Shown: positions 1 through 61,751 of the stretch, one piece after another
Layout: every line of letters starts with the position of its first letter
How positions within the stretch are numbered: the stretch's first letter is position 1
Assembly (NCBI GenBank): GCA_015179125.1
Contig: WHVA01000244.1
Span: 1 to 64,000 of the forward strand
Length of the DNA stretch: 64,000 bases
Direction of reading: 5' to 3'
Origin: Gautieria morchelliformis
Taxonomy: Eukaryota; Basidiomycota; Agaricomycetes; Gomphales; Gomphaceae
The notes under the pieces: generated by a model
Databases searched by the model: none
Seen by the model: only the letters and a program-made list of their open reading frames with translations
What the model was told of the DNA's origin: nothing
Made by a program: the position numbers and the translations under genes

Positions 1-279
1 GGGAAATTGAACACATATTGTGCTGGATAGAGTTCGGTGGGATACAAGCTTTGGCATGCTCAATCTCACGCCCAGAGGTGTTTGCATGCACCATTATTAC
101 CAGTGAAGTAGTGGCATGAACAGAAAGCCAGCCATACATGTTGAGTCAAATGTCATAACGTCTGTTCCATGGACACGTATATCAGCAAGCTACTTGCACA
201 GGATGTTCTGATGGTATATGGATCAACCCATCTCACTTCGGCAATGCGAGAATGACCAGCAATGTAAGAGCTTCAGGAG
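1..279. other. No gene seen
   Basis: Ordinary AT-balanced sequence with no long open frame and no recognised motif. It lies just past the 3' end of the minus-strand MULE gene and may hold that element's 3' flank or terminal repeat, but no inverted terminal repeat could be matched by eye. Confidence 0.4.
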
Positions 280-3271
280 TCAGATTTCTTGCCTTCTAGG
301 GACCACCATGCAACAGGAATGATGGATTGTGGTTCTGAGGAGTAGTGCCTGGTGCAGCACAAGGTCTATCCCCCCAGCTTCAGCAGCAAATCGTGTTGAA
401 AGCCAAGAATAGTAGGCGCATTGTAAGCAGCGGCGTGTGAAAATTCCAGGTAATATCTGTGTAATAAGAAGATAAACAAAGAGATCAAACCGCAGGCGTT
501 TGCCTGCTGCTGCCATTGGTGTATGTATTTGCGTTGAGTACAGCATTGAATGCTTCAGATGATTAGTTGTTGGTATAACACCCTCTATTGGGATCTTCAA
601 GATCGTGAAGCCTCCAGATGGCCTTGTGTGACCATCCCTTCCAGAGGGAATACGGCATCCAAGTGTTTGTCATATAATCAAGGTATGCAAGGCCAGCCAT
701 TGCACCCGCAGCCATCTCAGGCAACTGTGCAAGGTTACTCAATGCAGCCTGTTCTTCAGTTATTAGCTGCTGAGCTGCTTCATGATCAACTGAGAGAATA
801 AGTCTGGGCCACTGGGTTAGAATATTAGTAGTAGATGTAATATATATTAGCTCACAATTTTTCCAAGGCTTGAAGCCGACCTTTAACTTGCTGTTTTGGG
901 AAATTAGATGTTTTTCCCATGTGGAGCATTTTCTTGCGCTGATTCGTCCAGCACTGACAGACATGAAACTTGCACAATATGAGCCAAATGTCTGGCCATG
1001 TGTGTGCAAGAGCACCACACTCCTTCATGTCTGTGTCGGTAATAGCCACACAGGGTGTAAACGGCACACCATTTTGAGAACCAAGGGAATTTTTCCATGC
1101 TGTCAAAACTTCAACAAGAATAGTTGTATCATAGCCAGCATGCGTGGCTTTGTTTCCTGTAGGGCTGAAAACAGAAAAAAGCCAAAGGAACCCCTTTTTC
1201 CTTCATCAATGCCGAGGGCAATAAATAGGAGCACCCGCCGGTCGCAAATACCAAAAGTACCATCCAGAATGAGCTGACCCTGATGTGCATATTTCCATGC
1301 AGCATCTTTCATTTCAGCAGTCTGAATGCATATGCGAAGGCGGCCATCCTTTTCCACCCTGGCTTGATAATCAAACACTGCTCCTGCCAGCTCAGGTTTG
1401 TAGGCAGTAGACTCTGGGTTAAGCCAATTATCAAGATTATACTGTGGATGCTCTGAGACATCAATTCCATGCATTCTTGAGTATTTGCGATAGAGTCGAC
1501 AGCTATCGCTTGGCAGGATCTCGTAACGAACATTCATGGTTCGAGGATCATGGGTGGCCTGGTCGCTATACAATTTTGCATGGCAAAGTTCAACATTGCG
1601 AGCTTGGATTGATGTAATACTAAAAAACAGCCTTGAAATCCCATTCCATATCTAATTCATGATAAGACTCACCTGGACCACCCATCATCTGCTGCAGAGC
1701 AACCTGCCATACATGGTCATGCAATGGAATGGTTGGGAGTCGCATCATCTTTCGGCCAAACAGCTATCATTATGTGACAAGACACCAGTGATTCGTCGCA
1801 CATGATAGTCCGACATACGATATGTGATGTCGAGATGAGCAAGGCATCCAGTATGGTCGTACGGGGTCTTTCGAAGCCAGTTTTTCATTTATAGGAAGGC
1901 CTTTTGCCATTTGTTGCTGGTCATCTTTAGTTTTTCGTGCATCTGTACTTGTGCCACATTGACTTTGGAAGGGAATGGAGTAAGTATTTATTTCAATCTA
2001 TCTATTAAATGTTTCCTACCACTGTAGCAGCATGCGAGTATACACGTTCAGTCCTTTTCCATGGCTTACTCCACCTCTTACTCCAACCATTTCCAAGATC
2101 ATCCATATTCCGAAGGTCCAGTCATTGAGCTTGCAACATACACGAGGCCTCTTGCTGCGAGTGCAGCTCATCAGAGAAAAGTCGATGGAAATTTGTGGCC
2201 GCATCGTAGTGTTGTTGAATCTGTTTGGTCTGTGTCGCATCTAAATGGAGCATTTTAATATGAACCTGTATGTTCATGAATCAAGGATGAGTACGAGTTA
2301 ATATAAATCTTAAGACAGCTCACCGTAACATGGCCTCCACGCTGCATCATTGGTTTATGTGGTGCAGGTGGAATACTGTTGGTCTGTGGAAATTACTGTA
2401 GAAAATGGTAAGCAATCATGGTGGCTCTGCAGATCAAAGAATATAACTTATGCTGGGAGAAGGCGGCTATGTTGGTAGTGCACCTGGGGCCGAAGCTGAG
2501 AGCCGAGTGTCAGGAGCCAGCGAAGGGAGCGGCGGCGGAGGGGGCATAGCAGACGAGGACGGAATCCTGTTGATCTGTGGAAATTACAGAAGAAAATGGT
2601 AAGCAATCGTTGCTGCATGACTGCAGATCAAAGAATATAACTTACACTATGAGAAGGCAGCTGTGGTGGTAGCGCACCTGAGGCCGAAGCTGAGAGCCGA
2701 GTGTCAGGAACCAGGGAAGGAAGCAGCGGCGAAGGGAACAGCGGCGGAGGGGGCATAGCAGATGAGGACAGAATCCTGTTGATCTGTGGAAATTACAGAA
2801 GAAAATGGTAAGCAATAGTTGCTGCATGACTGCAGATCAAAGAATATAACTTACACTATGAGAAGGCGGCTGTGGTGGTAGCGCACCTGAGGCCGAAGCT
2901 GAGAGCCGAGTGTCAGGAGCCAGGGAAGGAAGCAGCGGCGAAGGGAGCAGCGGCGGAGGGGGCATAGCAGACGAGGATGGAATCCTGTTGATCTGTGGAA
3001 ATTACAGAAGAAAATGGTAAGTAATCATTTCTGCATGACTGCAGATCAAAGAATATAACTTACACTGTGAGAAGGCGGCTGTGGTGGTAGCGCACCTGAG
3101 GCTGAAGCTGAGAGTCGAATGTCAGGAGCCAGGGAAGGAAGCAGCGGTGAAGGGAGCAGCGGCGAAGGGAGCAGCAGCGAAGAGAGCAGCGGCGAAGGGA
3201 ACAGCGGCGGAGGGGGCATAGCAGACGAGCCAATGGAGAGCACAGAACGCAGAACAAGGTCTACCACCTAG
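280..3271 (-). mobile_element. Mutator-like (MULE) DNA transposon gene, decayed
   Basis: Minus-strand transposase of the Mutator-like family, which cuts and pastes DNA with a DDE catalytic core. Visible in order: an exon array at 3271-2324, an exon starting at 2265 (reads VHIKMLHLDATQTK), then the core. The core holds LILDGTFGIC (first catalytic Asp, about 1290-1320), the block TDTDMKE followed by CKFHVCQCW (about 960-1050), and a late block IPTTNHLK (about 553-575). In relatives this last block usually reads TTNHLE; here the codon at 553-555 gives Lys, so the catalytic Glu may be lost. The reading frame changes near 1105, near 850-900 and near 600, and a TGA follows LQAQ at about 2130. Conclusion: a long-dead gene with most of its length preserved. 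No terminal inverted repeats were found, so the element ends are unknown. Confidence 0.75.
2324..3271 (-). repeat. Tandem exon-intron array at 5' end of MULE gene
   Basis: Four imperfect tandem units of about 195-210 bp. Read on the minus strand each unit is an exon bounded by TTTCCACAG and a GTAAGTT donor, followed by a short intron. Exon copies: 2855-2992 and 2646-2783 are 138 nt each, 2452-2574 is 123 nt; all are multiples of three and phase 0. The right-hand copy (3064 to about 3271) is longer through a 15-bp internal repeat (AGCAGCGGCGAAGGG-like). Each exon would encode a Pro/Ser/Leu-rich block (SSAMPPPPLFPSPLLPSL, then RLSASASGALPPQ). A 60-nt phase-0 exon (2324-2383) follows before the transposase exons. 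In the 2452-2574 copy the donor GT has become AT. Copies could be added or skipped without breaking the frame. Confidence 0.8.
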
Positions 3272-4103
3272 CTGTACAAATCAATGAGTGATATCCAGAG
3301 AGCTGGTACCAAGAAACAAAATTACCTTTCAACAATGAATAGCCAATTTGAAGAATGCCGTTAAACATCGGACTAGAGGCCATAGGACTCGGTCCTCCTT
3401 TCTACCGGAGGAATGAGCGGACTTGAGCAACGTCAATCCAAGGAATCTATTACTTACTTGAAGAGTTAGTATTGCTATATATAAAGTAGTGCCAGGCTGG
3501 CACCTGACAAGGGAGAGGGCCACCGACGGGACGAGGCGACGCTCAATGGAATGATGAGGGGTTTTGTATTTCCACCGAATAACTGGGGCAGCCGATGGTC
3601 TGGACTGGTCAGCTGCTGAGTCAGCTGGGTGTTCGGGCTTCGCACTCGATGGCGTGCGCATCACGTGAGCATCTGTTTTGCGCAATGCGCACCAACCCCA
3701 AACCCCACCCAACGCGTCCCGTGTGCATCACGTGCCCATGTCGGGCGCCGCTGTGGAGCACGAGTGACGACGTGCGGATGTCTTGCACATCTTGTGCCCA
3801 TCGCCGACATTGGCTGCAGATTTCGATCGCGAGCATCTGACACGCATCTCAGAAGACTCCTTATGAGAATGTGTATACTCCTGTAAGTCTGAATGTCGCA
3901 GCACCCACCGTGGCACGGACACACTCTGCATAAATCGCCTTCACTAGTCCTCGGTCCCAACGCTAAATGCATACTCTCTGCTCCACTCGTCCTTCCGGAA
4001 ACGCTGCTCCTCTGCGCGACCCTGCCGCTGCGAATCAGCTTTAACGAGTCCATAGTCAACTGTTACGACGATACTTACTCGCGCTGGAGACCGCCAAGTC
4101 GGT
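3272..4103. other. No gene recognised
   Basis: Unique-looking sequence becoming GC-rich toward the right. Several short open frames on both strands overlap each other and none shows a known motif. No repeat or terminal structure seen. Confidence 0.4.
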
Positions 4104-5472
4104 TTGCACAACCCTAGCGCTCGACATTGTACTTTCTACCACGCTGTTCCACCTCGAGGCGACGCCGGCGGCGTGCCCCACGGCGATGGGGCCCACTTCT
4201 CCTCGTCGCCATCCCTATCGCGTGCGCGCAAGCCGTGGCCCCCACGCCGGAGACGAGGGAGCAGACGCACACGGAGCGTCCGGATGCACGGGCGGGGCGG
4301 CTCCCCCATCCTGCACCACGACGACCCCGAGTCACTCTTCTCCTCGCCCTTGCTGCCGACACCGTCTTCGAGCAGGCCAAAGCGTGTTCAACCATTGCCC
4401 ACGCTGGCAAACCCCGCGCCCACGACGCTACATGAGGGGGCGCCCTTCCTCCTCACCCTCATGACGCTCGCAAATGCGCTGTGCACGCACGCGTGCGTCC
4501 CCCCGCTCGTGCGCTTCCCCATGTGCGTGGTGGCGGCGCGCTGTAGGATGGGCGAAGGCGAGCGGGTGATTGAACTTGTGCGGAACGAGCTGCAAATTGC
4601 GGCGATTCTCGTCGTGCAGAAGGACACCATCAGCATCCCACATGCACATGCCCCCGGTGTCGGCCCTGGAGGCATGAAGCGCGGTCCGGCGGCAGGGGCA
4701 TAACACACGTGGACAAACCTAGACCTCCCGTGCCAGAGCCGCGCGCGCGCAGCGCACGCACTGCACCTCCACATGCTCAAGCTGCTCGCCACGCCCTCCC
4801 ACGGCCCGGAGGACGAGGCCACGAACATGTAAGCCACGTCCACAAGCTGCATCGGATGCGTGTTGCGTGTCCGACGTCCCACATCACGCATTCAAATTCC
4901 TCATTTTTAACCTCGGTTCTTTACGCACTCGTGCTTACGCGGCCCGTTTTCATTTGTTGTAGTTCCTCGGCGCAAAAACATACGTGCATGCGGGCACCCT
5001 CCTGGAATTCGATGGGCCTGTCCCTGCCCGCGCACCCGCGCCCGTCCTCCCCCCCACTCCGGCCGCCTTTTCCCTCTGCGCCCGCCCCCACACCACCGAC
5101 TCTCGCCTCTGCCCGCGCCCCACCCCCTCCAGCTCTTCCTTCGACCTCTCCACCGCCATTCATACGCACTCCACGCCCCGCTGTCCGCGATCAAGGTCAG
5201 CACTCACGTCATCCCCCCTGTCCACCTCCCGCTCTGTCTCCGCATCCGCCGGCGTGCTGGGCACGGTGCGCTTCGTGCGGCGATGCACAGGGTCGTTCTC
5301 CCTTGTGATCGCGGCGCTCTGGCAGATCATGAAGCCGTCCATGCATCATGCGCTCACTGAGCATATGAAGAAGCGCTGCAGCCGCAGGCGGAGCGGGGCG
5401 GCTGTGGTGCGTAGTCTGAGTACAGGGAGCACGAGCGGGGGTGCACCGTTGATGCATAGATGTTCCCCTTAG
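4104..5472 (+). pseudogene. GC-rich coding-like stretch, unrecognised
   Basis: High GC with strong codon-like periodicity on the plus strand and open frames in all three phases, as expected of GC-rich coding DNA or its decayed form. A possible intron runs from a GTAAGC at about 4835 to TTTGTTGTAG at 4963; downstream the frame reads FLGAKTYVHAGTLLEFDG. Upstream a frame reads LHMLKLLATPSHGPEDEA. These pieces look like real protein but match no family that I can name, and the pieces do not stay in one frame. Most likely a decayed host gene; chance open frames in GC-rich DNA are the alternative. Confidence 0.25.
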
Positions 5473-8049
5473 CATAGAGTATTGCAATCTCACCAGAGTC
5501 TCACTTCCAAATCACCATCAGCATGCGACTGATAGCTGAAGACCGGTCGACAGCCATGCAAACATGCCAACCGGCCTCGGCACCAGGTCGGGTTACCTTA
5601 TTGGGCAGTTGAGCGTACACAGGGGACCCACCTTTTGTCTGTGAGCAAGGTGGTCACCACGCTTGAGGCGGCTTGCAGCCCCGCTCCCATCCCTCCATCC
5701 ACAAGGTCCTCATACGCATTCTCCTCTATCTGAGCTGCGGCTTAAGGTATGGCAGCGCAGTGCTCTCCCTTATCTCATACATGGCTGATGCAGCGCTGGC
5801 ACCCGTCCCAGTGCTGCTCGCACTATCTCCCGAGGCTGTCCGGTGCAGCACACGTTGCGACACGGCCGTGCTCTTGGCCAAACTCCACCTGTACGCGGAG
5901 TCGACGCGGTTCAGAAGGGCTCTTGTCATCCCTGTGAATAGGTTTCAACGACTATCTGGTGTGCGTGGAGAGGAGCAAGAATTAAGACTAAAAATCGAAA
6001 AGAATGGTAGATGGCGAAAATAATAGAACATAAACGTCTCCGTACTACTCCACGGAATGGGCACGCGAAGGAGGTTGTGCCGTACAGCAAGTGGGGACCG
6101 GAGTATAACCGGCGCACGGAACGATGGAAGCAGCAGAACAGGCAATCAATGGAAGCATCCAGCAAACTCCGATTGGCAACAGAAGCACACAGGGACAGCT
6201 GCAAGTGGCCAAGATCAGGAGGAAGAAGCGCAAGAAGAGTATATAGTCAGCAACCCGAAGTGAGGAACCCGAAGCCAGGAACCCGTTCGGGACACGTGGC
6301 GCCATGCGCACAATTCATCTCTCAAGCGCCGGATGAGTCACGTGGGAGAAACCGTCGTCACCCGTATGCTTGGGGGACGAAGCAGAGCTTCAGATATGCA
6401 GAGCAGACGGAACAAGGGCCAGGACAACGCGATATGAGTCCTCCGCATAGCGCCTCCGTCCACCTCACTGACACAACACTGCCCACACCCTTCCACTACA
6501 CGCTGCTGCGCGGCATGTAGACAGACAGGGTGCGGGCGCGCCTGCGCGGGGGGTAGAGGGATGACGCAAACGCAAGAGGACGCAAAGGTAAGAGGACCAG
6601 AAGAACGGCCTCAATGGAATGCAAAGGTGTGTAGGTTAGCACATGTCGCGCATGGTTAAGATGACAACAGAAAAAAAGAGCGCAGACTCGGAGTAGGCCA
6701 CGTAGACAACGGCCTTTCAAGAAGCGCGTCACCCAGCGCCCTGACCTGAATGGCATGCAGGCATAAGCAACAAACAGCGACCCCAATGAAACGACACGCA
6801 CGACAAAGAACGAAGCCGCACTATCTTCCTCCAACCCCAACCCATCCTCGCCCGAATCGCCATGCCATCGGCGTCACCAGCAGCCCCCTCGCCATCATCA
6901 ATCTCCCACACGGCGGGCGCGCCGATCCCAGACCCGGTGCGGGCATGATCACTCCCTTCTCCCCCGCACCCGCCTCCAGGCGCGCCGTTGGGTACACGGA
7001 GTCGGTAGCACAGGCATGCAACGGGGCCGTTTTAAGCTGGGGATGGTGGCTGGTTTGGGTATGGCCCGGCCGAAGTGACGGAGGCGGACCCAGGGGGTGC
7101 GGTGGTGATGGAACGGTGGGACAAGGGGAGATGGGGACGGGGCTTTAAAAAGTGGGTTCGGTGCCGTTTGTAGAAGCAGCAGCGCTGCGGCAGTTTTTTC
7201 TTTTTTCTTTCTTGTTTTTTTTTTTGCGCTGATCCCGGGCTCGGCCGAGGGCATCGCTACCGTCGTGACCCCATCGCGGAACGCGTTTATACCCCAACAG
7301 AGGAGCACGTGCCGCCGTCTGACCTTGTCTCACTCGCAACCGAATCCCAGGTATCGACGGGTAACGACGATTTACCGCGACAGCTCGAGGAGGCAAGGAC
7401 ACCACCGATAGCCTCTCTCGAGCGGAAAACGGATGGCTTGGCGGGTATGCAGGTTGGGGTGCGGGGAAAGCGGGCGAGGAGGTGCGGAGGTTGATAAAGG
7501 CAATCTGCTCAGCTAGGGTGGCGGGGGACGGGGAATATGGAAGCGGCGGTAGGGGCGTGGGCGTCGGCGGCGGAAGGATGAGCTCGACGCATGATAGAGG
7601 AGGGAATGAGGCGCGGTGGAAGAGGTAGGACTGCCGGGGATGTGTGGTGGGGGTTCGGGAGCGACGAGACCAGCCGACGGAGAGCGGGCTGGTCGGTTAG
7701 CTTCGGTAACTCCACGGTAGGTCGCATTGTCCGGCCTTTCAAGAATGATTCTGTCTTGGACGTAGGCGTCGAGGGACTTTCTGGTTTTTCCCCATCTTTC
7801 CTTCGGTGAATGCTATGCTTCCGTTGACCAGAACGGATCGTGGACAAGGGTCAACTCAAGCATATGCGGGAGGGTGGAACACTTCAAATTTAAGGCATCC
7901 GCCTCACTGAAGGCCTCTGTCCGAGCATGTGTCGAATGCAAGCTGTTCACGCTCAACACTAACCACGCCACGGCCACATACCTCAGACTCATGCCGGGTG
8001 GGGTAGGATGAGTGTGGGCTGAATTGGCTCAGGGTCAACTCATTGACTC
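5473..8049. other. No gene recognised (2.6 kb)
   Basis: Mixed GC-rich DNA with many short overlapping frames on both strands and no known motif. A stretch at 7306-7440 (plus; reads VPPSDLVSLATESQ) and one at 7509-7809 (minus; reads EKPESPSTPTSKTESF) look mildly protein-like but are short and isolated. A pyrimidine-rich run with T tracts lies at 7193-7225. Nothing supports a confident gene call. Confidence 0.35.
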
Positions 8050-10648: not shown

Positions 10649-11340
10649 TGTTACGACCGTTCATTTCCGAGTTCCGACCCTCAGTTCCGCCACACCTTCC
10701 GCCCCTCTGATATTTCCGCAACACATTCCGCCCCTCCGATATTTCCGACATTCCGCCCCTTGTACATTTCCCTTGTTCTTTCGACTCTATTACTCGGACC
10801 CACCGGACCCGTTTCATTGTTCATCAAAACCACATATCCGGTCACCCTTGTAGTTCATTGTCAGATATGTTTTCCCGACCCCTTGTTCTTTGCCATTGTT
10901 CTACCTTACCCTGAACCCCCCTCGTAGTCCCATTGTTCCCAATAGTTAGTTCCCACGCATTGTCTACTCGACTTGCGCTTCCCCCGGAATGTGCTTAGTA
11001 CCATATCATTACCTGTTGTCTCAGCTCTTTGTATAAAAACCCCCTCATGTATGTCTGTTATTCTGCAATCAGATAATCACCTTTGATACTTGATTTCCTT
11101 CGCTCCATCTCCTGTTCTTAGCACAGCGAGTCTAGCAAGATCTCAGTCTCTCCGCCTTCCGTCTTCCGCCTTCCACCTCAGTTCCGGCTCAAGTTTCCGA
11201 CCAAACCTTTGGTTCAGTACTTTCCGACTTCCGACTCAGTTCCGAAATACTTAGGACGATAGTTCATCGGGGGCGCAACCTATAAGTTGAAGCCGCTGTC
11301 CTTTCCAGTTCCGACTTAGTGGAAATCTCGATACGTAACA
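10649..11340 (+). mobile_element. LTR, gypsy-type, family B, plus orientation
   Basis: 692 bp starting TGTTACGACC and ending ATACGTAACA (TG...CA). A TATA box (TGTATAAAAACCCC, near 11031) fixes plus orientation. Related copies: 16180-16562 (+, partial), 22790-23438 (-), 61021-61751 (-), 61925-62125 (-, partial); all share the block GGCGCAAC followed by AAGTTGAAGC near the 3' end. The right edge cuts the Helitron Rep frame at 11341. The 5 bp on either side (GATAC / CATGG) do not match, so this is not a clean solo LTR. A fossil LTR without internal coding DNA. Confidence 0.75.
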
Positions 11341-13871
11341 CATGGCCCTTGTAGAGATACTTGTGGATATACTTGATACACCTCACATTGATGGTGAGTT
11401 CAGGGTTGATGTGACACCACAATTTGAGCAAGAGCAGAGCAGAGTATGGCACAACCCATCTGTTGTCCAGCATGTCACCTCTGACATTGTGCAGCCTTCC
11501 ATCATTGCGACAACGATATTTTGGATATCCATCCTCATTCAGACTGGTTTCCTCACAGAATGGCTTTGGGAAGTTTTTCTTGCACTTGCCATTTTCCATG
11601 CAGGGTGCGTTTCGATTCATTTCTCCACAGGGACCATGTGTCATCAGCTCACAGACCAACCGGTAGAGGATAGGATGAGTCTCTGGATCAGGGAACTCTG
11701 CTGAAATCATTGAATCCGCCTCATGTGGATGTCTGATCTTGGAATCTCTTTCAAACCAGATAAGAATATGCATGTGTGGGAGTCCCCTTTTATGGAATTC
11801 ATTGTCCAGGCAACAATGCATCCAATATCTCCTGCCAGTTGGGATTGGCAGTCATGGTAATAAAGAGATCTGCCACACCATACTTCCTTGAAATGGCCAG
11901 AGAGTTCTGCAGGTTTTCCTGCATGTCCCATGTCCCCCCCTGAAATGTGGCAGGCAGAATGGATCTTGTGCCCAAGTTGTTTGGATCTCTGTCATTGTCA
12001 TTGCGATGAAAGGCATCCATCATCTGGTTATACATCTCAGCACGGAGAGTGTGTTGATTTGTCCTGATCCACCACAGCCTGATTTGCTCTGCAGCGGCCC
12101 AAGAGTCTACAATGTACTGCTGGAATAATTTGCCAGCACGCAGGAGTGTTGTAGGTTCTTCTGTTCTCTGGAAGAGACGATAGGAATGGAACTGAATTTG
12201 GGTGACATGCCCAGGTCGCTCACGCCCGCCTGGTAATTGGCGATAGCGAATACCAGGTTGCCACCCCAACTCTCCCCTGGGAAAGAGCAAGACATAGTGA
12301 AGAGAGGCATAGTTTGGATTCATATTGGATACCCTTCGAAAGCGTCCACCTTTGAGCTGGACAATAACATCCCTAGGTTCAGGGTTGATGCCATCTCCAG
12401 GAAGAACCCCCGCAATCTCATCCGCAGTAGGGATATTATACCTCCTAGGATCCCTGTGTTCCCTGTATGTGAGCCTAGCCCGGATCTCACCATTCTGTCC
12501 CTGAGCTCTGAGCCTCTCAGCCGCTTGTCTATATATGGGAACATGAGGATTGCATAGGAGGAGCATTTCCTGCAAGTCTCCCATGATAGTTGGAGACAGA
12601 CCTGGGTTACGCACGTTCCTCTGTGCCAAAGCCAATGCTGGATCATATATATAAAGTTGGGCATACTGTATCTGCCTCCCAGGGTTAGGGATGAGAGAGC
12701 CATGAATATGATACAGTTTGCCCTGCAGCTTGAGGACATATGGACCACGACCCTCCCGAAGCAAATCTAGATCAAAGTCGGCTCCCAAGGAAGTGAATGC
12801 AAATGCAGCATTGTACTGCCTGATGTTCTTGCGAAACTGGTTGGCCTCAGGGTCCTGGCCCTCTAAGAGCCGTCTCAATGGCTGAGGGAGCACTGGCAAC
12901 TCTGGAAGCTGCACCTTTCCTTTTATACAGCAATCACCAAACCTGGGCCGCACATTTGAGGATTTCTGCAGGCGTTCTGCCATCCAGTGCAATGCTTTAC
13001 AGTCAGGGCAGGAAACAACCATGGGACCCAGATCATGACGCTGCACATCTGCCTCGATTATTCTAGAGCGACCAAGTGGAATAGGAGGAGGAGGTTCCTG
13101 AGGACGCTGCCGAGGTACAGGGACTGGCTGAGGAGGCTGAGGAGGTGCAGGGAGTTCCAGAAGAGGCTGAGGAGGTGCAGGGAGTGGCAGAAGAGGCTGT
13201 GGAGGTGTAGGGAGTGGCTCAGGAGGCTGAGGAGGTGCAGGGAGTCGCTGAAGAGGCCGCAGAAGTGCAGGGAGTAGCCGAGGCATTGGTCTTATTGCAT
13301 TGGCCTGAGCCGGCAATGCTGCCACTCCTGCAGAACCTACTATAGGAGGATTAGCTGCCTGTCTACCTCTTCCCAATTGCTGCAATATAGCAGACTGCTC
13401 AGCAGCCTGAGCACGCAACTGTGCAATTCCTGCAGAACCAACCACAGGAAGATTGGCAGGTGGCTGTATAGGCTCCTGCCTGTATCTTCTCATGGGCTGT
13501 GCTGCTGGGATTGCTGCTAACTGAGCACGAAGGGCTGCCACCTGCTGTCCGGGACTGGGATTGGGAGGACGTGACTGCCCTGCAGGCATAGGAGGATGTG
13601 GTGGCCCCGCAAGGATAGGAGGACGTGATGGCCCTGCAGCAGGTTGTTGAAAAGGATCAGCGACATTGCTTCTAGGAGGAGGGTGAGGGATGGCAAAAGG
13701 CTGTGGTGGAGGGGGAGGCTGGTCCTGAGCTCTGACAGCAGCAGCAGCAAGTGCACGCGCTCTCCGATCAGTGGGCGACGTCATATGACCCTCTTGCTCC
13801 TCCCTTGCCCTTTCACGCTCCTGCTGACGATTTCTCTCTGGAGTAGAAGGATCCCTGAGAAATGCAGGCAT
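11264..13871 (-). pseudogene. Helitron Rep (RepHel N-terminal half), interrupted
   Basis: Helitron initiator: a HUH endonuclease that nicks and joins single-stranded DNA. From Met at 13871: a Pro/Gln-rich N-terminus of about 270 residues with repeated APPQPLLPLP-type blocks; a Cys motif CPDCKALHW near residue 290; the Helitron-like domain (NPNYASLHYVLLFPRGELGW; LPATFQGGTWDM; DLFITMTANPNWQEIL) ending at 11799. One frameshift near 11810 leads into GLPHMHILIWF, the HUH motif, then VCELMTHGPCG, and the catalytic Tyr pair YIHKYLYKG at about 11345-11371. Codons below 11341 belong to the inserted LTR. Full RepHel proteins exceed 1,300 residues and continue into a Pif1-like helicase, which is missing here. 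Confidence 0.9.
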
Positions 13872-15026: not shown

Positions 15027-16160
15027 TCAAGGAGCTCTAAGTAATACATCTTTATATACAATGTTGGTTGTGTCCAAACCCTCCTCAAGCAAGACCTTGA
15101 CTCTGTTCCAGTTGGTCCCTCTTGATACACCAACATACAACTGACCATGTCCAAACACTGGATATCTCAGGTCCAGCCCAACCGTACCCAAAGACTGTCC
15201 CTGAGACTTGTTGATAGTCATTGCAAATGCCAAACGCACTGGAAACTGCCTCCTTTGCAGCACAAATGGCAACTCTCCCTCTGATGGCTTAATGATGATC
15301 CTGGGGATGAAAGCAATATTGCCTGCACGTGGACATGAGATGATCCTGACCTCCAACACTCTAATGCTTATCCTCACCAACCGCAACCTTGTCCCATTGC
15401 ATAGTCCTTGCTTCTGATCCAAATTGCGCAACAGCATCAGAGGCACTCCAGGCTTGACTTCCAAGCGAGCAGGAGGAAGACAGCCCATCTCTATGGAATT
15501 CAGATACTCCACAGGATACCGATCTGCATTGTCGGATTCTTCAATGGAATTTGCACAGTGCAAGACCTGAGCATCACCTGGAAACTCCCTAAACACCATG
15601 GAATTGATCTCATTGACCTCAGTGTTTCTGGCACAGAGGATGGCCCGCTCCAAAAAGTAATTATCCTGGGCAGGGACTTGATTGCCAATGCCAGGGTATA
15701 TTTCCTGGATCAGATCTTCAATTCCAGGGCCACACACCATGTGAGGAGGCAGTGAGAATGTATGATCTAGTGGGAGATCCTTTCCCTGGCCCACATTCTG
15801 CAGCCATTCTGCAAACCTGGCTCTGTCAGGGTCATTTCTCACCCGCATGTTCTCTGTCAGATGGATGACCTTGATCTTTGGCCACAGATATGACTTCTGA
15901 AGGGTAGCTCCCACGATATCCTCCTTGGAGCCTTTAGGGACAATTGGGAGAGTCTGCTGAAAGTCACCTCCAAAGGGGACTGTGATGCCACCAAAGGGTC
16001 TGTCAGGCTGGTCAAGGAAATCCCTCAGTGTCCTGTCAATGGCCTCTATGGCATGGCGATGCTGCATTGCAGCCTCATACCAGATGAGAAGACTGGCCTG
16101 TCTCAGCATGTCAGCCTTGTCAGAGTTCTTTTTGATGGAGGAGAAAGAGCGGTTCCACAT
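15027..16160 (-). pseudogene. Helitron Pif1-like helicase, C-terminal fragment
   Basis: An open frame of 377 codons for the later motifs of a superfamily 1B (Pif1-like) helicase, which unwinds DNA during rolling-circle transposition. Seen: RPFGGITVPFGGDFQQTLPI (motif III region, GGDFQQ), VIHLTENMRV, CARNTEVNEIN, KPGVPLMLLRNLDQKQGLCN (motif V-like block), and LAFAMTINKSQGQSLGTVGL with YVGVSRGTNW (motif VI region). The Walker A and B motifs lie upstream in relatives and are missing, so the piece cannot work alone. Stop at 15027 is the natural C-terminus (LLEEGLDTTNIVYKDVL). The frame is free of stops, suggesting a fairly young insertion. Confidence 0.9.
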
Positions 16161-16179
16161 TAGTTACTTATTCCATGTA

Positions 16180-16562
16180 TCCTAGTGACTTTCGCTTGCA
16201 CTGGAATTGCTTACCTCTCTACCTTCTGACATGTTGTCTCAGCTCTTTGTATGAAACCCAGTCACGTATGCCTCTGTTCTACAATTAGATAATCAACTTT
16301 AATACGTGACTCCGTTTGCACTGTTCCCTATTCTTAGCACAGCAAGTACTTGCAAGGCCTCTGTCTCTCTGACCTCCGTCTTCCAACTCGATTTCTGATA
16401 TCCAACTTCACTTAATTCTTGAACCCTTACTTCTTCAGTTATAATACTTGACCTATTCCAACTTCCGATCTCCAATCTCCAAAATACTTAGGATGGTAGT
16501 TGGGGGCGCAACAGATAAGTTGAAGCTGCAGTCCTTTTAGAGCCAAACCCGATACATAACAG
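16180..16562 (+). mobile_element. Partial family B LTR, plus orientation
   Basis: The 3' portion of the LTR seen at 10649-11340: TTTGTATGAAACCCAG (TATA region), CTTAGCACAGCAAGT, GGGGGCGCAACAGATAAG and the end GATACATAACA at about 16562. The 5' part is absent. Its left edge coincides with the broken end of Helitron A. Fossil. Confidence 0.7.
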
Positions 16563-17040
16563 GTAATGACTCTACACATTTCTCCCATGTCTGTGTGTCC
16601 CCTACCTCACATGTAGCATGTCCTCACGTGTAGTTGTCATCACACTTCATCTGTCCTCACACATATCGCATCCTCACACGTAGCGTGTTCTCACAGATGG
16701 CATGTCCCCACATGTACTGTGTCCCCAAGTATAGTGTGCATAGTGTGTCCCTCAAGTATAGTGTGTGTAGTGTGTCCCTTGTTTGTAACGTGTCCCTAAG
16801 TATAGTGTGCATAGTGTGTCCCCACATGCAGCATGTCCCCAAGTACAGTGTGCATGGCATGTCCCTCAAGTATTTTGTGTGTAGCATGTCCCTGGTTTGT
16901 AGCATGTCCCTGGTTTGTAGCATGTCCCTGGTTTGTAGCATGTCCCTGGTTTGTAGCATGTCCCCAAATGTAGCATGTCCCTAAATTATAGCATGTGTGT
17001 CCCCCATGCATAGCATGTCCACATGTGTAGCATGTCCCTA
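16563..17040 (-). repeat. 17-18 bp minisatellite, block 1
   Basis: About 25 degenerate tandem units; on the plus strand TAGCATGTCCCTGGTTTG is a typical 18-bp unit, and CATGTCCCCACATGTAGC-like units occur. Read on the minus strand the units become GGGACATGCTAC / GAGGACACGCTACGTGTG, the same family as the block at 28811-29733. Open frames across it are by-products of the repeat. Confidence 0.85.
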
Positions 17041-21404: not shown

Positions 21405-22458
21405 TGTCATGGCCCATCTATTTTGTATACCCAGTAACTTCGACACCCCACTTTTACGTTCTCCCCATTCGCTCCTCGCCGAATGCGCCGAACATTTATT
21501 CGCTTTCGCATCATTCGCACGTAGCAGCGCTACCTGGACTCGATCAACGCCTCCTCCCCAACTCAATTGTCCACCGCGGGTCCCCTCACCTCCCTGACTT
21601 GCACCCTGTCGGATGCTCCTCTGATCGGATGGCTCAACTGATTTATTTCCTATACCCAGTTATCCCTATTATCCATTTTCCCAGTCCTCCTCTATGTTCG
21701 CATGGCTTCGCCCTCCCCTTGGGCCACGGCTTTTCGATGATCATTCTATTTCGCCCTTCGCCGCATTTCGCCAAACAGCCATTTGCTGCTCGTATCATTC
21801 ACCAGCAGGCACACCATCAAAACACGATCAACATCCCCTACCCGGCATGATGGCTCGTCACTGGCTCCATCAGCTTCTCGGTCCAACCCCTTTATGTGTT
21901 CATATGAGCAGGATGCGTTTGCGGGACGTCCTACCCATAGGCCGTGTGGGCTCAACCCAGTAGACGAAGAGTCCATGCAGGGTGGTGTATATGCGGGTCC
22001 CAAGACATGGTTTCGTACAAAGGTGCCTTTGCCACCTTTACTCTCCGTCGTTTCATGTTCACCCTCTTCTCTCACTCTATTGTATGTTTATTCCATCCAC
22101 GTTGTATCATGACTGCGCCCCCCTATCCAACCCTCACTCGTGACGGCCTCTTTCCTATTCGCTGATACCTTACGAGCATTCAATATAAGTAGTTTACATT
22201 TGCATGTATATTCCTCAGTTCAATTATCATACGTCCATCTTGTGCAAACTTGACCTCGCTGTGATCATCGTCTTGAGCCCTCTCCTGTAGATTTCTATCT
22301 TCGACCAGAAGAAGACTTAGGCATCACTGGTGAGTTCTCATACTTCATCTTCGCTACCTTAGCCTTCGAACTATTTTCTGTGCTGTCGGCAAAGGGCTCT
22401 GAAGGAGCACCTTCGCCGGCGAAGGGATTGTCGCTACTTAGACAACCCTTCCGTGACA
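21405..22458 (+). mobile_element. LTR, gypsy-type, family A, plus orientation
   Basis: About 1,054 bp from TGTCATGGCC to TCCGTGACA. A second, 798-bp copy lies at 60209-61006 (TGTCATGACC...TCGTGACA); the two share long blocks such as GTGTTCATATG, GCGGGTCCCAAGACATGG and ATATAAGTAGTTTACATT. The TATA-like ATATAAGTAG near 22185 gives plus orientation, opposite to the gypsy coding relic on its left, so it is probably a separate element. Flanking 5-mers (CAATA / CCTTG) do not match. Fossil LTR without coding DNA. Confidence 0.7.
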
Positions 22459-22789: not shown

Positions 22790-23438
22790 TGTTACGTATC
22801 AAGATTTCCACAAGTCGGAACTAGAAAGGACAACCGCTTCAACTTATGTGTTGCACCCCCAATGATCTATCATCCTAGGTATTTTGGATTGCAGGTCGGA
22901 AGTCGGAAAGTATTGAACTAGGGAGAGGTCAGAAGTTGGGTTGGAAGGCAGAAGGCAGGGAGACAGAGGTCTTGCAACACTCGCTGTGCTAAGAACAGGA
23001 GATAGAGCGAAGGAAATCCAGTATCAAAGGCAATTATCTGATTCCAGAATAATGAGCATACATGAGGGCTTCTATACAAAGAGCTGAGACAACAGGTAAT
23101 GGGGTAGTACTAAGCAAATTACGGAGGAAGCGGAAGTTAGATAGACATACGGGGTAAGTAACTAATTGGGAACAAAAGACTACAAGGGGGTCCAGGGTAG
23201 AGTAAACACAATGGCAAAAGAACAAGGGGTCGGAAAGCATATCTGACATAATGGAACAACAGGACTCCAAAGGGGATGCACATATGGTCTTACTGTGCTG
23301 CGAGTCGAGTCCGGTGAGTCCCAGTAATAGAGTCGAAAGAACAAAGGATATAACAAGGGGTGGGATTGTCAAAATTATCGCAGGGTCGGAATGTGAGCAG
23401 AACTGAGTGTCAGAAGTCAGAAATGCATGGTCATAACA
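22790..23438 (-). mobile_element. LTR, gypsy-type, family B, minus orientation
   Basis: 649 bp, TGTTACGTAT at the left and GGTCATAACA at the right, the reverse complement of the LTR at 10649-11340. A TATA region reads TTTGTATAGAAGCCC on the minus strand (about 23075). Left flank is AATAC, right flank TGGTG; no target duplication. Fossil. Confidence 0.75.
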
Positions 23439-28810: not shown

Positions 28811-29733
28811 GTCCCTGATATGTGTGAGGACACGTTACGTTTGGGGACATGCTACCTGTGAGGACACGTTACGTGTTAGGACACGCTACCTGTGAGGACA
28901 TGTTATGTGTGGGGACACGCTACCTGTGGGGACACGTTACGTGTGGGGACATGCTACCTGTGAGGACACGTTACATGTGAGGACACGCTACCTGTGGGGA
29001 CACGCTACCTGTGGGGACACGCTACCGGTGGGGACACATTACGTGTGGGGACACATTACGTGTGGGGACATGCTACCTGTGAGGACATACTACCTGTGGG
29101 GACACGCTACCTGTGGGGACACATTACGTGTGGGGACATGCTACCTGTGAGGACACGTTGCGTGTGGGGACACGCTGCCTGTGAGGACATGTTACGTGTG
29201 GGACATGTTATGAGTGGGGACACGTTACATGTGAGGACACACTACCAGTGGGGACATGTTACGTGTGGGGACACGCTACCGGTGGGGACACATTACATGT
29301 GGGGACACGCTACCGGTGGGGACACACTACCTGTGGGGACACGTTACGTGTGGGGACATGCTGGCTGTGAGGACACGCTACCTGTGGGGACACGTTACGT
29401 GTGGGGACATGCTACCTGTGGGGACACGCTACCTGTGAGGACACGCTACCTGTGAGGACACGCTACCTGTGAGGACACGCTACCTGTGAGGACACGTTAT
29501 GTGTGGGGACATGCTACCTGTGAGGACACATTACGTGTGGGGACACACTACCTGTGAGGACACGTTACGTGTGAGGACACACTACCTGTGGGGACACGTT
29601 ACATGTGAGGACACGTTACGTGTGGGGCATGTTATGTGTGGGACATGTTTTGTGTGGGGACACGTTATGTGTGAGGACACCCTACCTGTGGGGACACGTT
29701 ACGTGTGAGGACATACTACCTGTGAGGACACGT
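28811..29733 (+). repeat. 17-bp minisatellite, block 2 (about 54 units)
   Basis: Long array of a 17-bp unit alternating GTGGGGACACGTTACGT and CTGTGGGGACACGCTAC forms. Since 17 is not a multiple of three and the unit has no stop in any frame, the array yields open frames with a 17-residue period (GDTLPVGTRYVWGHATC); these are not genes. It is the inverted relative of the block at 16563-17040. Confidence 0.95.
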
Positions 29734-50365: not shown

Positions 50366-51352
50366 GTGTGCTCCACCGCGAGGAACAGCGCCTCCGACAA
50401 CGAAGACCTTGCGACTATATCAGCTTATCGACACCTCTCAAGGCTCTCTAACGCAACGAGCCACTCACCTAATCCTTGGACAACACCATCTACCTCTCAC
50501 ACCATTCCGCGCAGATCACAAATTCCTGTTCCTTCGACGACGCCTGCACGTGCCACTCGATCAGTACAGGTAACTACCCGAGCTCAGAGTAGGCAACTGA
50601 CAACGATGGCGGCTACTAACACCGGACGAGCTGCAATGCCAGCACCAGGGACATCGAAAGCCCCTAAAACTTTTGACGGAAAAGATTCTGAATTGGAGGA
50701 TTTCTTAGATCACTTCGAAACCTTAGCTGACGCGGCAAAACTTACTGATTTGGAACGCATTGCCCAGATTGGGAAGTATGCAACCAGGAAACAGCGTAAC
50801 CTCTTCGAGGTACTTGACGGGTATGATCCAGCCGACTGGAACGAGTTCAAGAAATCGTTGGCCGACCTATACCCCAACGCCTTCAAAGCCCGTCGCTATA
50901 CTCGCCAGTCCCTCGAAACTTTTACTGCTAAGGCGGCACGAACTGAGATAGCAGACGAAGATGAGTTGAATGACTACTACCGTGCATTTTTACCTATTGC
51001 CCAGTGGCTTGTTGCTCAAAAGAAGATCTCCATCGAAGACCGTGACCGCCAGTTCTGGTTCGGCTTTCATCCCCGAACTAGGACTACATTGAAGCATCAG
51101 CTCAGGATCTCGAAGCCGAATCACGACATTTCCATACCTTACGACTATAAGGACGTTCTCAAAGCCGCCAAATATATCTTCGATAATCAGGCTTTCGACC
51201 TGGATCCGCAGCCGCAAGTTGGACGAGGACGCCGGTCCTGGGCAGACGAGATGGAGGATGAGGAGAAGGAGGAGGACAAGGGGGGGAGACAGAGGAGGAG
51301 GAGGAGCGGAGGGTCAGGAAGGTGCGGTTTGGAAAAGGAGGAACGGACGTGA
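50366..51352 (+). CDS. Gypsy gag polyprotein
   Basis: 328-codon frame just after the 5' LTR. Capsid-like region: FDGKDSELEDFLDHFETLAD, KQRNLFEVLDGYDPADWNEF, DELNDYYRAFLPIAQWLVAQ, DRQFWFGFHPRTRTTLKHQL, ending in a very acidic and basic tail (DEMEDEEKEEDKGG). Overlaps the start of the pol frame. Fossil element part; no claim about activity. Confidence 0.9.
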   Translation: MCSTARNSASDNEDLATISAYRHLSRLSNATSHSPNPWTTPSTSHTIPRRSQIPVPSTTPARATRSVQVTTRAQSRQLTTMAATNTGRAAMPAPGTSKAPKTFDGKDSELEDFLDHFETLADAAKLTDLERIAQIGKYATRKQRNLFEVLDGYDPADWNEFKKSLADLYPNAFKARRYTRQSLETFTAKAARTEIADEDELNDYYRAFLPIAQWLVAQKKISIEDRDRQFWFGFHPRTRTTLKHQLRISKPNHDISIPYDYKDVLKAAKYIFDNQAFDLDPQPQVGRGRRSWADEMEDEEKEEDKGGRQRRRRSGGSGRCGLEKEERT

Positions 51353-54300
51353 AGGAAAAGGGAAAGGAGTCAGCAGAGTCACTGGACGACCTCATCAAGA
51401 AACTTACCTCGCTGCAAGTTCACGACACCCACTATGCGGTCAATTACGCAAAGTTGGTACTCTACTACCCAACAGTAGCCGATCGTCTTGCGGCACCTGC
51501 GACGTTCCAAGCAGGAAAAGCAGCGCCTTACGCACCTCCGGGGCCGGCAAGGCCATCATACAACTTACAAGCTAATGATCCTTGGCCGTGTGCCTTTTGT
51601 AAACGACTCGGCTGCGCTACGAGGAGGTGTGACGTGGCCGCACAGTATATCAGAGAGGGGAAGATCGTTCAAAGGGGGGACTGCTACCGTTGGCCAGACA
51701 ACTCACGAATCCTGACGCATGAGAAGGGCATCAAGTTCGTAGTGGACACGGAGTTGGAGCGCCGTCGAGTCCCAGCGGCATCCATTCAGGAAGTCCCAAC
51801 CCAGCCAGCCATGTTTGTCGGTGCAGATGCCACATCGTTGGAGGAGAACGGGACGGAGAGTTTCGTGGTGGAGGTAGAGGAGGGAGGAAGTGGGGCGAGG
51901 GAAGAGAGAGTGAGAGAAGAGCGACCAGTACTGTTGGCACCAGCCAGTGCACAGGGAGCAGGAGGTTACCGGGCTCCGGATTCTGCAACACAATACAAAT
52001 TCCGTTCCAAGATTGAGGAATCCTGCTCACCAGAAGACATCTTTAACGCAGTACTTGACACTCCAGTCACGCTACCCCTTCGACACATTGCTGCGAGCTG
52101 CCCAGACGTGAGGCGGCGGATGGTGGACAACTTTAAGACGAGTAAGATTTCGACCCCTACTTTGTTCACGGCGCCCGCAGATGTCCTGCAGGTGGGAGAC
52201 GACATCGCCATACCATACCATTGTCCACCGAGGGAGCTGGACATTCTGCTACAGGGGGTTCACCAGGTCATAGGGGTGTTTGATACGGCTTCGTCGCTGG
52301 TCAACATACGGCATGGACTGGTAAAGAAACTGGGACTCGCCGTCAATCCAGATGTGCGAGTCAGCATGACGATGGCGAACGGCGGGGGGGACTCAACAAC
52401 AGGGGTGGTGGAAAATCTGCAAATTACGATAAGTTCGATCACGATCCCTGTCCACGCACATGTAGTCGATGACAATGCACCATATGATGTGCTGCTGGGC
52501 CGGCCGTTCCAGGTTATTGGAAAGATCGACACTACAAGAGCAGGCGAGACACTCATTATTCATGACCCTCGACACACTCACCACAGGATCCACGTCCCTA
52601 CTCGACCCCACGTAACACCGTGCCGCCACAGCAGTCACTACCTAGGTCTCGCAAGCTTGTCAAAGCTCACCACGATCAGCAGGCTGACACCGCCGGTTCC
52701 TGCCCTTCAAGCTAATGTGTCCGCAGGAACGTGCTCCTGGCTGCAGGAGGTATATGGCATACGAGGGCCTGCGGATGTTTTTGTCGCGCGCAGGTACAAG
52801 CCTGTCGAACGACGAGTCCGACCTGTTGCAACAACCCTACCAGAGGAGTGTCATGTCAAACGAAGGTTTCCAGAAGACCCGTTGAGATCACTTACGCTTT
52901 TGCCAACGAAGCCAGCGGGGAGGTTGGAGTTTGGAACAAGGTTGACGAAGGAGAGATGGGAGGAGTTGAAGGTAGGGGAGGATGGTTTCCTGTGGGAAGA
53001 GGAAGTGAGGTTAGCTTTTGCGGCGTTAAAGAACAACGAGGAGGGGTTGGCATGGACAGAAGCCGAGAAGGGACGGTTCAGGGATGACTACTTCGAGCCG
53101 GTAGTGATCCCGACGATTGAACACGAACCTTGGGCCGAGCGTAACTATCCTATTCCACCCGGTCTTTTTGAGCAGGTTGTGTCCATCGTCAAGGACAAGA
53201 TTGCCTCGGGAGTGTTTGAGCCTTCATCGTCTTCCTACCGGTCGAAGTGGTTCTGTGTCGCGAAAAAGAATGGCGCCCTGCGGATTGTTCATGACCTCCA
53301 GCCGTTGAATGCTGTAACAATCAAAGATGCCAGCCTGCCGCCTGCAGTAGAACAGTATGCAGAACGTTGTGGAGGGCGTAGTATTTACTCACTAGGTGAC
53401 ATCTTTGTGGGGTATGATCACAGGCCTTTGGACAAGCACTCGCGAGACCTGACGACATTCCAAACACCTCTTGGGCCTCACCGTCTCACAGCTCTACCCA
53501 TGGGTTGGACTAACTCAGTACCTATCTTCCATGGTGATATCTGCTTTATACTTCAGGATGAAACGGATTGCGCACCACCTTTCATCGATGATGTCCCCAT
53601 ACTAGGGCCCCGAACTCGCTATGAGAAAACAGATGGCACGTACGAAACTATTCCGGACAATCCTGGCATTCGGAGATTTGTGTGGGAGCATTTTGAAGAT
53701 GTAAATCGAGCGTTGCATCGCTTTAAACACGCTGGCGCAACCATATCAGGGAAAAAGTTGTTTCTAGGGGTTCCAGAGCTTACCGTGGTGGGACATCGCT
53801 GTACCTTCCAGGGCCGAATCCCAGACACGGAAAAAATCGATAAGATTGTCAACTGGCCAGCGTGTCAGAACGCCTCCGAAGTTCGTGGTTTTCTGGGAAC
53901 CTGTGGGGTCGTCAGGATATTTATCCCTGGCTTCGCAGAGCTGGCTTTACCTTTGGTTAGGCTAACAATGAAGCAGGTGGAATTTGTGTGGGGGGAGAGG
54001 GAGGAGGGTGCGATGGCAAAGCTAAAGGAGGGGGTGGTGTCGGCGGAGGCTTTATCAGCAATCAACTACACAGCGGCAGGACAAGATATTACCCAGCGTC
54101 GTGTTATTCTCGCAGTAGACTCATCCGTCCTCGCGGTCGGATGGATCCTATTGCAATTGGACGGGGAGGGACAGCGCCGCCCTTCGAGGTACGGTTCAAT
54201 AGCATGGAATGCGCGAGAATCGAGGTACTCACAGGCAAAGCTGGAGTTGTACGGGCTTTTCCGGGCCCTACGGGCAAATCGGCTCCATCTTGTTGGTTTA

Positions 54301-55287
54301 CCGACCTTCGATGTTGAGGTGGACGCTAAGTACATTCGGGGAATGCTAAATAATCCTGACATTCAGCCAAATGCTGCCATGAACCGTTGGATCCTCGGAA
54401 TTTTGCTCTTCGATTTTAAGCTAGTACACGTACCGGCGAAGAACCACAAAGGACCTGACGGGCTGTCCAGACGAAGGAAGGCGAAGGGGGATATGGAGGA
54501 GAGGGAGGGCGAGGCGGAGGAGTGGATCGACGACATGTTGGACATGGGGGTTTGGGTAAATTCCTGGTGGAGACGGGGTATTCAGAATTGTGAATGGGAC
54601 GACATGGAAGAGAGAAGGGAGGGCACGACAGGGGAGAACGGGGGAATAAAGGGAGTGGTTGAACAGGTTGGGGAAAGGCAGGGTGAGAACGGCAAGGGAA
54701 GGCAGGTTGAGGGAAAGGAGCGGGGCTGGATGGGCAGGATAGGGGAGGAAGGGACGGGAAAGGATAAGGACGGAAAAATGGGGGACTGGCAGGATGAAGA
54801 CGGCAAGGGTAGGCTGGTTGAGGGAGAGGAAAGAGATTCTGAGATGACGATGAGGATTGACGAAAGCGAACGGGGAAGGGAGGGCACAAAGGGAGAGGAT
54901 GGGAGAGAAAAGGGAAAACATGGGGATGAAACTAAAGACAACGGGAAGGAGCGAAGAGGGGAGAACGTGACAAGGGAAGTTGGGAGAGGCAAAAGGGAGG
55001 ACAGGATGAGCGGAGAAGGAATATATATGGGAGAAGAGAGTGAGGAAGCGAGGGACAGGACCAGAGGGGCAGGGAGAAGGCAGGAAGAGAACGGAGGGAG
55101 AGAAGGGGGGACGGGGCAAGAGGAGAAGGAAGTGGGGCTAGGAAGGCGGGAGAGGTGGACGGACATGAGGGGGGAGCGAAAAGCAAAAAGGAGAGAGTGG
55201 AGAGGGAGGAAGACAAGGGAGGGAACGGGGAGGGGGCTAAGAAAGGAGAAGAGAGAGATGACGCACGAGCAAAAAAAAAGGGAGTAG
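51322..55287 (+). CDS. Gypsy pol: protease, RT, RNase H, charged linker
   Basis: 1,321-codon frame. In order: a short Cys motif CAFCKRLGCATRRC (about 51590-51630), protease-like VIGVFDTASSLVNIRHGLV and YDVLLGRPFQVIGKID (about 52270-52525), reverse transcriptase with SKWFCVAKKNGALRIVHDLQ, YDHRPLDKHSRDLTTFQTPL, LPMGWTNSVPIFHGDI and box FIDDVPILGP (about 53240-53610), RNase H with AVDSSVLAVGWILLQLDG, KLELYGLFRALRANRLHLVG and EVDAKYIRGML (about 54110-54345), then about 270 residues almost wholly of Glu, Gly, Lys, Arg and Asp (54480-55287). The linker is unusual in length and composition. Confidence 0.9.
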   Translation: MRFGKGGTDVKEKGKESAESLDDLIKKLTSLQVHDTHYAVNYAKLVLYYPTVADRLAAPATFQAGKAAPYAPPGPARPSYNLQANDPWPCAFCKRLGCATRRCDVAAQYIREGKIVQRGDCYRWPDNSRILTHEKGIKFVVDTELERRRVPAASIQEVPTQPAMFVGADATSLEENGTESFVVEVEEGGSGAREERVREERPVLLAPASAQGAGGYRAPDSATQYKFRSKIEESCSPEDIFNAVLDTPVTLPLRHIAASCPDVRRRMVDNFKTSKISTPTLFTAPADVLQVGDDIAIPYHCPPRELDILLQGVHQVIGVFDTASSLVNIRHGLVKKLGLAVNPDVRVSMTMANGGGDSTTGVVENLQITISSITIPVHAHVVDDNAPYDVLLGRPFQVIGKIDTTRAGETLIIHDPRHTHHRIHVPTRPHVTPCRHSSHYLGLASLSKLTTISRLTPPVPALQANVSAGTCSWLQEVYGIRGPADVFVARRYKPVERRVRPVATTLPEECHVKRRFPEDPLRSLTLLPTKPAGRLEFGTRLTKERWEELKVGEDGFLWEEEVRLAFAALKNNEEGLAWTEAEKGRFRDDYFEPVVIPTIEHEPWAERNYPIPPGLFEQVVSIVKDKIASGVFEPSSSSYRSKWFCVAKKNGALRIVHDLQPLNAVTIKDASLPPAVEQYAERCGGRSIYSLGDIFVGYDHRPLDKHSRDLTTFQTPLGPHRLTALPMGWTNSVPIFHGDICFILQDETDCAPPFIDDVPILGPRTRYEKTDGTYETIPDNPGIRRFVWEHFEDVNRALHRFKHAGATISGKKLFLGVPELTVVGHRCTFQGRIPDTEKIDKIVNWPACQNASEVRGFLGTCGVVRIFIPGFAELALPLVRLTMKQVEFVWGEREEGAMAKLKEGVVSAEALSAINYTAAGQDITQRRVILAVDSSVLAVGWILLQLDGEGQRRPSRYGSIAWNARESRYSQAKLELYGLFRALRANRLHLVGLPTFDVEVDAKYIRGMLNNPDIQPNAAMNRWILGILLFDFKLVHVPAKNHKGPDGLSRRRKAKGDMEEREGEAEEWIDDMLDMGVWVNSWWRRGIQNCEWDDMEERREGTTGENGGIKGVVEQVGERQGENGKGRQVEGKERGWMGRIGEEGTGKDKDGKMGDWQDEDGKGRLVEGEERDSEMTMRIDESERGREGTKGEDGREKGKHGDETKDNGKERRGENVTREVGRGKREDRMSGEGIYMGEESEEARDRTRGAGRRQEENGGREGGTGQEEKEVGLGRRERWTDMRGERKAKRREWRGRKTREGTGRGLRKEKREMTHEQKKRE

Positions 55288-61020: not shown

Positions 61021-61751
61021 TGTTACATACTGGAAATCCTGGAGAACGGATATAGAAAGGACAGCGGCTTCAACTTATGTGTTGCACCCCTGATGAACTA
61101 TCATCCTAGGTATTTTGGACTTGAGTTTCAGAGATTGGATGAGGCAGAGGTAGGGAAGACTCAGAAGTTGATCTTGGCTGGAGTGTCAACAGTTGGATGT
61201 CAGAGAACAGAGGTCAGAAGAGGAGGAGGATAGTATTGTAAGACAGAGAGAGAGAGACAGAGCACTTGCAAGACTCGCTGTACTAAGAACAGGAGATAAT
61301 GTGAGGGGATTCACGTATCGACGATTATCTGATTGCAGAATGGAGGGCATACATGAGTGGGTTTTTATACAAAACCTGGAATCAACAAGTAATGTGATAG
61401 GACTAAGCAAGTCCAGGGAGAGTGGATGTAACTATGATAAATGGAGTAAGTATCTAATGCAGAACAAGGGGACTACAAGGGGGTGCAGGGTAGAGTCAAG
61501 AACAATGGGAAAAAAGAACAAGGGGTGCATAAGTCTAATGGACAGCAGAACAAACAGAATACCTGATGGACTGGGAATGGTATCTTGCTGTGCTAAGGGT
61601 CGAGCAAGGAGGGCCAATGAATAGAGTCAATCAGGTGTGTTGAAGAACAAGGGGCTGAGGTCGTGGGCTGCTGAGGTTGCAGAATAGGGTCAGAGGTGGT
61701 GCAGAAGTGTTCTGGAGATGGTGGAGATGGTTAGGCGGCATGGTCGTAACA
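61021..61751 (-). mobile_element. LTR, gypsy-type, family B, minus orientation
   Basis: 731 bp, TGTTACATAC at the left and GGTCGTAACA at the right; TATA box on the minus strand (TTTGTATAAAAACCC, near 61365). Only 14 bp separate it from the family A LTR. Flanks GATAC / CTGAC do not match. Fossil. Confidence 0.75.

Follow-up and report, generated by a model that had tools for sequence, protein, structure and literature searches.

A tandem repeat across a predicted intron beside a decayed MULE transposase gene in Gautieria morchelliformis

Near the start of a 64,000-nucleotide stretch of Gautieria morchelliformis DNA (contig WHVA01000244.1, positions 1 to 64,000; hereafter the window), the minus strand carries a 209-base tandem array that we interpret, with fair confidence, as an intragenic minisatellite: an intron, with predicted splicing, that was multiplied near the 5′ end of a now decayed MULE gene and that persists as a neutral relic. 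The array is certainly a tandem repeat beyond chance. TRF called it at 2370–3158 (period 209, 3.9 copies, 83% matches, score 1035) and a second time at 2520–3173 (3.1 copies, 95% matches, score 1182), and it contains about four units, followed at the gene-sense 3′ end by 14 bases of a further, partial copy (Table 1). When the window was compared with itself by blastn (E-value limit 1e-5, with low-complexity filtering, matches sorted by position with those of the array first), the array matched only itself among the matches listed. An earlier note on this DNA had described four tandem exon–intron units on the minus strand, and its exon lengths, donors, acceptors and coordinates all agree with our direct check. 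The donor is GTAAGTT in introns 1–3 and ATAAGTT in intron 4, CTTAC is present in all four intron copies, and all four acceptors end TTTCCACAG. The internal exons, at 138, 138 and 123 nt, are all multiples of three, and exon lengths differ by 15-base steps because a 15-base repeat inside the units varies in number (by TRF, 2.4 copies at 2716–2751, 2.7 at 2925–2964 and 5.7 at 3134–3218).

Table 1. Features of the array and of the neighbouring relic, in window coordinates and in gene-sense order.
Feature	Position	Strand	Remarks	Basis
Candidate intron upstream of the array	3272–3325	−	54 nt, GTAATT...TACAG	sequence only
Tandem array	2370–3229	−	period 209 bases	TRF and direct unit comparison
Candidate exon 1	3064–3271	−	first in-frame ATG 3219; TAG 3270–3268	
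Candidate intron 1	2993–3063	−	71 nt, GTAAGTT...TTTCCACAG	
Candidate exon 2	2855–2992	−	138 nt, open in the array's frame	
Candidate intron 2	2784–2854	−	71 nt	
Candidate exon 3	2646–2783	−	138 nt, open in the array's frame	
Candidate intron 3	2575–2645	−	71 nt	
Degenerate exon copy 4	2452–2574	−	123 nt, in-frame TAG 2469–2467	
Intron copy 4	2384–2451	−	68 nt, ATAAGTT replacing the GT donor	
Candidate post-array exon	2324–2383	−	60 nt; first ~14 nt like internal-exon starts	
Candidate intron 5	2266–2323	−	58 nt, GTGAGC...TACAG; by eye no copy of the array introns	
Candidate next exon	2122–2265	−	47 codons, then TGA 2124–2122; no Pfam family above cut-off	
MULE transposase relic	852–1603	−	two pieces (1603–1103, 1139–852) in different frames	Pfam PF10551

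The event behind the array can be read from the limits of the repeat. Unit 1 diverges from the other units upstream of about 3229, and the likeness of the exon after the array to the internal-exon starts is limited to about 14 bases (2383–2370). Since both of these limits, about 3229 and about 2370, fall inside exons, the copied segment took in a whole intron together with the tail of the exon before it and the head of the exon after it; the internal exons are therefore chimeras of those two exons. The array thus combines tandem copies, homology limits within exons and one predicted intron per unit. Amplification of one exact exon was considered and rejected, as the homology limits lie within exons, and the "exon amplification" of the earlier note accordingly names the wrong event, the duplicated piece being an intron with parts of two exons. 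The same note had called it rare for a minisatellite unit to equal one exon plus one intron. That equality is automatic for any duplication across one intron; what remains as a coincidence is that 209 minus 71 is divisible by three and that the frame is open.

The intron reading of the units is probably correct, since shuffled units reproduce the layout in only 9 of 4000 cases. For this comparison, one unit was subjected to 4000 dinucleotide shuffles, and an intron of the form GTRAGT...CTNAY...YAG, 45–100 nt long, was required together with an open exon whose length is a multiple of three. The nine fits refer to the given strand; six shuffles fitted when the intron was limited to 50–80 nt, and 17 of 4000 fitted on either strand. 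The units of the array are copies of one another, and the result counts as one test, not as four independent confirmations. With the strict donor, the real unit contains exactly one candidate intron, the one first named, which leaves two exon frames open. Openness is accordingly weak evidence in this unit, the second open frame of the spliced unit also lying on the minus strand. Allowing any GT donor adds a minus-strand intron of 65 nt and one plus-strand intron of 74 nt (exon of 135 nt), each leaving an open exon divisible by three; for a plus-strand gene, a scan of the unit with the GTRAGT donor finds no candidate. The exon–intron structure first proposed is supported to this extent: in each of units 1–3 an intron-like segment can be removed to leave an open exon of a multiple of three, and a MULE relic lies on the same strand.

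That relic is broken. Pfam recognizes the MULE family (PF10551) at 29 bits, above the cut-off of 27.6 (E 1.5e-6, profile positions 2–98 of 99), and this only when the two pieces are joined across the frame break; taken apart they stay below the cut-offs, at 23.5 bits for PF10551 and 17.5 bits for ZSWIM1-3 RNaseH-like (cut-off 27.2). In the frames followed, stops stand between the array and the MULE domain at 2124–2122, 1891–1889 and 1747–1745, some of which could sit in introns. With a frame break within the domain and these stops, the locus holds no intact transposase of an autonomous member. The post-array exon is nevertheless followed by an intron-like stretch of 58 nt and by 47 codons without a stop, which continue in frame, on the same strand, toward the relic. 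From position, strand and frame, we consider that the array was probably once part of the now broken MULE gene. The array had been placed directly upstream of MULE exons, and of that placement the shared strand and the open chain toward the relic hold, whereas stops and a frame break intervene. MULEs are marked by terminal inverted repeats (TIRs) and a short target-site duplication. Our inverted-repeat scan of positions 1–6500 yielded, among the 25 of 34 pairs listed, a longest pair of 27 nt at 74% complementarity, and none was convincing as a TIR; the element may extend beyond the window start.

It is against this background that a working coding VNTR has to be weighed, in which live MULE relatives would splice the units in frame into a variable Pro/Ser/Leu-rich N-terminus and the present copy would be a damaged one. 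Units 1–3, which have full splice motifs and open exons divisible by three, are mutually in frame, as this explanation would have it, but unit 4 departs from the pattern twice over. Exon 4, translated in the frame of the array, gives ...ALPT*PPSPS, with its TAG at 2469–2467, and its intron lacks the GT donor, a loss that could reflect a CG-to-CA transition at the exon end (AGC|ATAAG). Two joinings were tried. The full series 1-2-3-4-5 hits the stop in unit 4, and joining all four units therefore gives a truncated product; the series 1-2-3-5, which passes over unit 4 and continues after exon 3 with the post-array exon (2383–2324), stays open, a point in favor of the coding explanation. Since unit 4 is without a GT donor, its skipping in splicing is the natural guess, though only a guess. 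A reading with all four units in frame was rejected on account of the TAG, and it is not the case here that all units are open and joined in frame to protein. The idea that unit number is frame-neutral thus stands for the open units 1–3, in exons of a multiple of three, and fails for unit 4 with its TAG and AT donor, while a variable-length N-terminus made of all units joined to the transposase is not supported, in view of that stop, the lost donor, the stops downstream and the frame change inside the MULE domain.

The similar variation of exon and intron copies likewise speaks against a coding VNTR. In units 1–3, the comparable 3′ part of the exon differs at 6 of its 66 sites and the introns at 4 of 71, and exon and intron variation so alike is as expected of neutral copies. 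The four intron differences sit in mid-intron, away from donor and acceptor, which is consistent with use of these sites. Including the comparison of exon 2 with exon 3, ten exon sites vary, all by transitions, five synonymous and five not (hand count); exon 2 allows 138 transitions, of which 49 (about 36%) would be synonymous, and the excess of synonymous changes is not significant (hand arithmetic). Across those 66 sites, unit 4 has six more changes of its own, and the stop is among them. No sign of purifying selection on the exons appeared in this comparison. A codon-usage score over exons 1–3, which depends in part on amino-acid composition and was derived from 3701 codons of six window ORFs (five of them scanned with Pfam), gives −0.13 per codon for the proposed frame against −0.30 and −0.16 for the other minus frames; one plus frame reaches +0.35 per codon there but has four stops, and the values for the MULE pieces are +0.12 and +0.03. 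Scoring synonymous choice alone failed to distinguish the frames, and Pfam matched no family to the array's protein. Site variation and codon scores together gave no positive evidence of coding constraint. With no relative found that uses the units or varies in their number, in collections that do not target fungi, we hold the coding VNTR to be unlikely.

An array that does not code would account for several of these observations. It could form subterminal repeats or the 5′ leader of a MULE, or be an adjoining minisatellite, in which case the splice-like motifs would be accidental or would mark a leader intron only. The codon score does not favor the proposed frame, and if the acceptor is placed at 3272, the array's frame has TAG as its first complete codon (3270–3268), which closes it just before unit 1. 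The earliest in-frame start codon is therefore the ATG at 3219, inside unit 1, a motif that recurs in each of the other three units. Subterminal tandem repeats are moreover known in MULEs elsewhere: in Aedes aegypti, repeats of 9–15 bp are described in 10 of 12 long-TIR families, and MULE target-site duplications as 8–9 bp (PMC5225508). The likeness lies in tandem repeats near a MULE end; the Aedes repeats, however, are short and belong to long-TIR families, whereas our units measure 209 bases and carry an intron-like segment, although the 15-base repeat does lie inside them, and no TIR was detected in 1–6500. No long inverted arm in that range, among the 25 of 34 pairs listed, would place the array within a TIR, and shuffled units seldom show all the intron motifs together with an open exon of a multiple of three, as described above. 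A non-coding array is, on this evidence, improbable.

Very unlikely, finally, is an array in an unrelated gene for a Pro/Ser/Leu-rich protein with the MULE relic merely downstream (the upstream interval 3272–4000 was examined for genes by ORF listing): the lack of a Pfam match for the array's protein and the stops before the MULE domain would suit it, but the open, splice-compatible chain leads from the array toward the relic on the same strand.

The intragenic minisatellite in a decayed MULE gene would have arisen in a few steps, whose order we infer from the present arrangement. The origin would be a MULE transposase gene in a transposon-rich genome, near the 5′ end of which a segment of ~209 bases, made up of the end of an exon A, one phase-0 intron and the first ~14 bases of an exon B, was presumably duplicated in tandem. 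Unequal exchange or replication slippage could then have extended the array to about four units, and the 15-base repeat inside the units would change in number separately. Each added unit would contribute one intron copy and one chimeric 138-nt exon, the start of which would come from exon B and the rest from exon A. As the period exceeds the intron length by a multiple of three, in-frame splicing of the copies would have been possible in the living gene. Later, the donor of the gene-sense last unit would have been lost, a stop would have arisen in that unit and the transposase would have decayed, which most likely makes the copy seen today a neutral relic. The codon score, the second open frame of the spliced unit and the further introns that fit with any GT donor weigh against this reading.

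In its present state the locus illustrates, on a modest scale, how a minisatellite can grow across an intron of a decaying element. If the units were spliced in live copies, it would become a clear small case of one intron-spanning duplication giving rise to a frame-neutral repeat, and such a repeat would add introns and protein repeats together, in a transposon of which many copies could be compared. A bolder possibility, to which we give little credence, is that a self-expanding exon–intron minisatellite makes up the transposase N-terminus of a MULE family, units without a donor being skipped by the spliceosome, as in the 1-2-3-5 series here. Recombination would then alter the unit number with the frame intact, the array could absorb mutations, and a disordered Pro/Ser/Leu-rich tail would lengthen or shorten with the number of units.

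We know of no case of an intron-carrying internal tandem duplication inside a MULE gene, and in the literature on MULEs or transposases with repeated exon–intron units, judged by titles and abstract openings, there was no evident match. The title of Gao and Lynch 2009, a reference of PMC3443670, calls internal gene duplications "ubiquitous". Where such a duplication carries an intron, the whole intron is multiplied and repeated exon–intron units result, as in our array; the difference is that here the gene is broken and the introns are predicted from sequence. That citing study treats intron gain by tandem genomic duplication as proven and as shown in vivo; it lists 188 events from several eukaryotes, Cryptococcus among them (PMC3443670). 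There too, intron number changes through tandem duplication, but the new intron arises from exonic AGGT sites, whereas a ready intron was copied here. The spider flagelliform silk genes, which are large live structural genes with known transcripts, also consist of repeated exon–intron units. Concerted evolution of ensemble repeats is described for spider Flag, and several Flag introns are listed (PMC3522626). Both cases involve intragenic ensembles of exon plus intron, kept similar in silk by concerted evolution; the silk genes are large and live, whereas our array has about four units beside a transposon relic. The main text of a survey of 1631 MULEs (PMC6446971) does not contain the words "intron", "exon" or "tandem".

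Relatives were sought in three sequence collections that are not aimed at fungi, and their absence therefore means little. In viral_contigs, which is not a fungal collection, protein searches returned 5, 2 and 108 stretches that fit a pattern, none confirmed as a relative, and a 25-base intron pattern had 0 matches; in plasmids, likewise not directed at fungi, blastn gave no match; and in genome_contigs, with the same restriction, a protein search returned 44 stretches, none of them confirmed.

The wider window is rich in domains of mobile elements. Among its other ORFs, Pfam identified Helitron_like_N, PIF1, RVT_2, RT_RNaseH and RNase_H, with RVT_1 just under the cut-off; two of the eight window proteins given to Pfam had no match, and Rfam had none in the window. 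From these domains we read the surroundings as being of Helitron, copia, gypsy and non-LTR type. Together with the short introns, these element types point to a fungal and probably basidiomycete host. The ORF at 13892–11799 (−), which carries Helitron_like_N, contains in its Pro-rich part a 30-base (10-codon) repeat of 5.9 copies (13098–13275), another proline-rich repeat in a transposon protein of this window. A second tandem array, with a 17-base period and 53.7 copies, occupies 28823–29732, and parts of it reappear in inverted orientation at 16605–16727, with about 70–77% identity. Two longer segments recur: 21742–22396 and 60320–60974 form a direct pair that agrees at 83% of about 658 aligned positions, and 10722–11340 and 22790–23395 are inverted copies, 77.6% identical over 634 aligned positions. 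The inverted pair has weaker matches at 16152–16537 and around 61047–62036 and perhaps represents a dispersed element family. At 51262–56732 (+), long overlapping ORFs encode 1341 and 562 aa; because the first contains aspartyl protease and RT-RNaseH domains, this region is perhaps a fairly complete retroelement.
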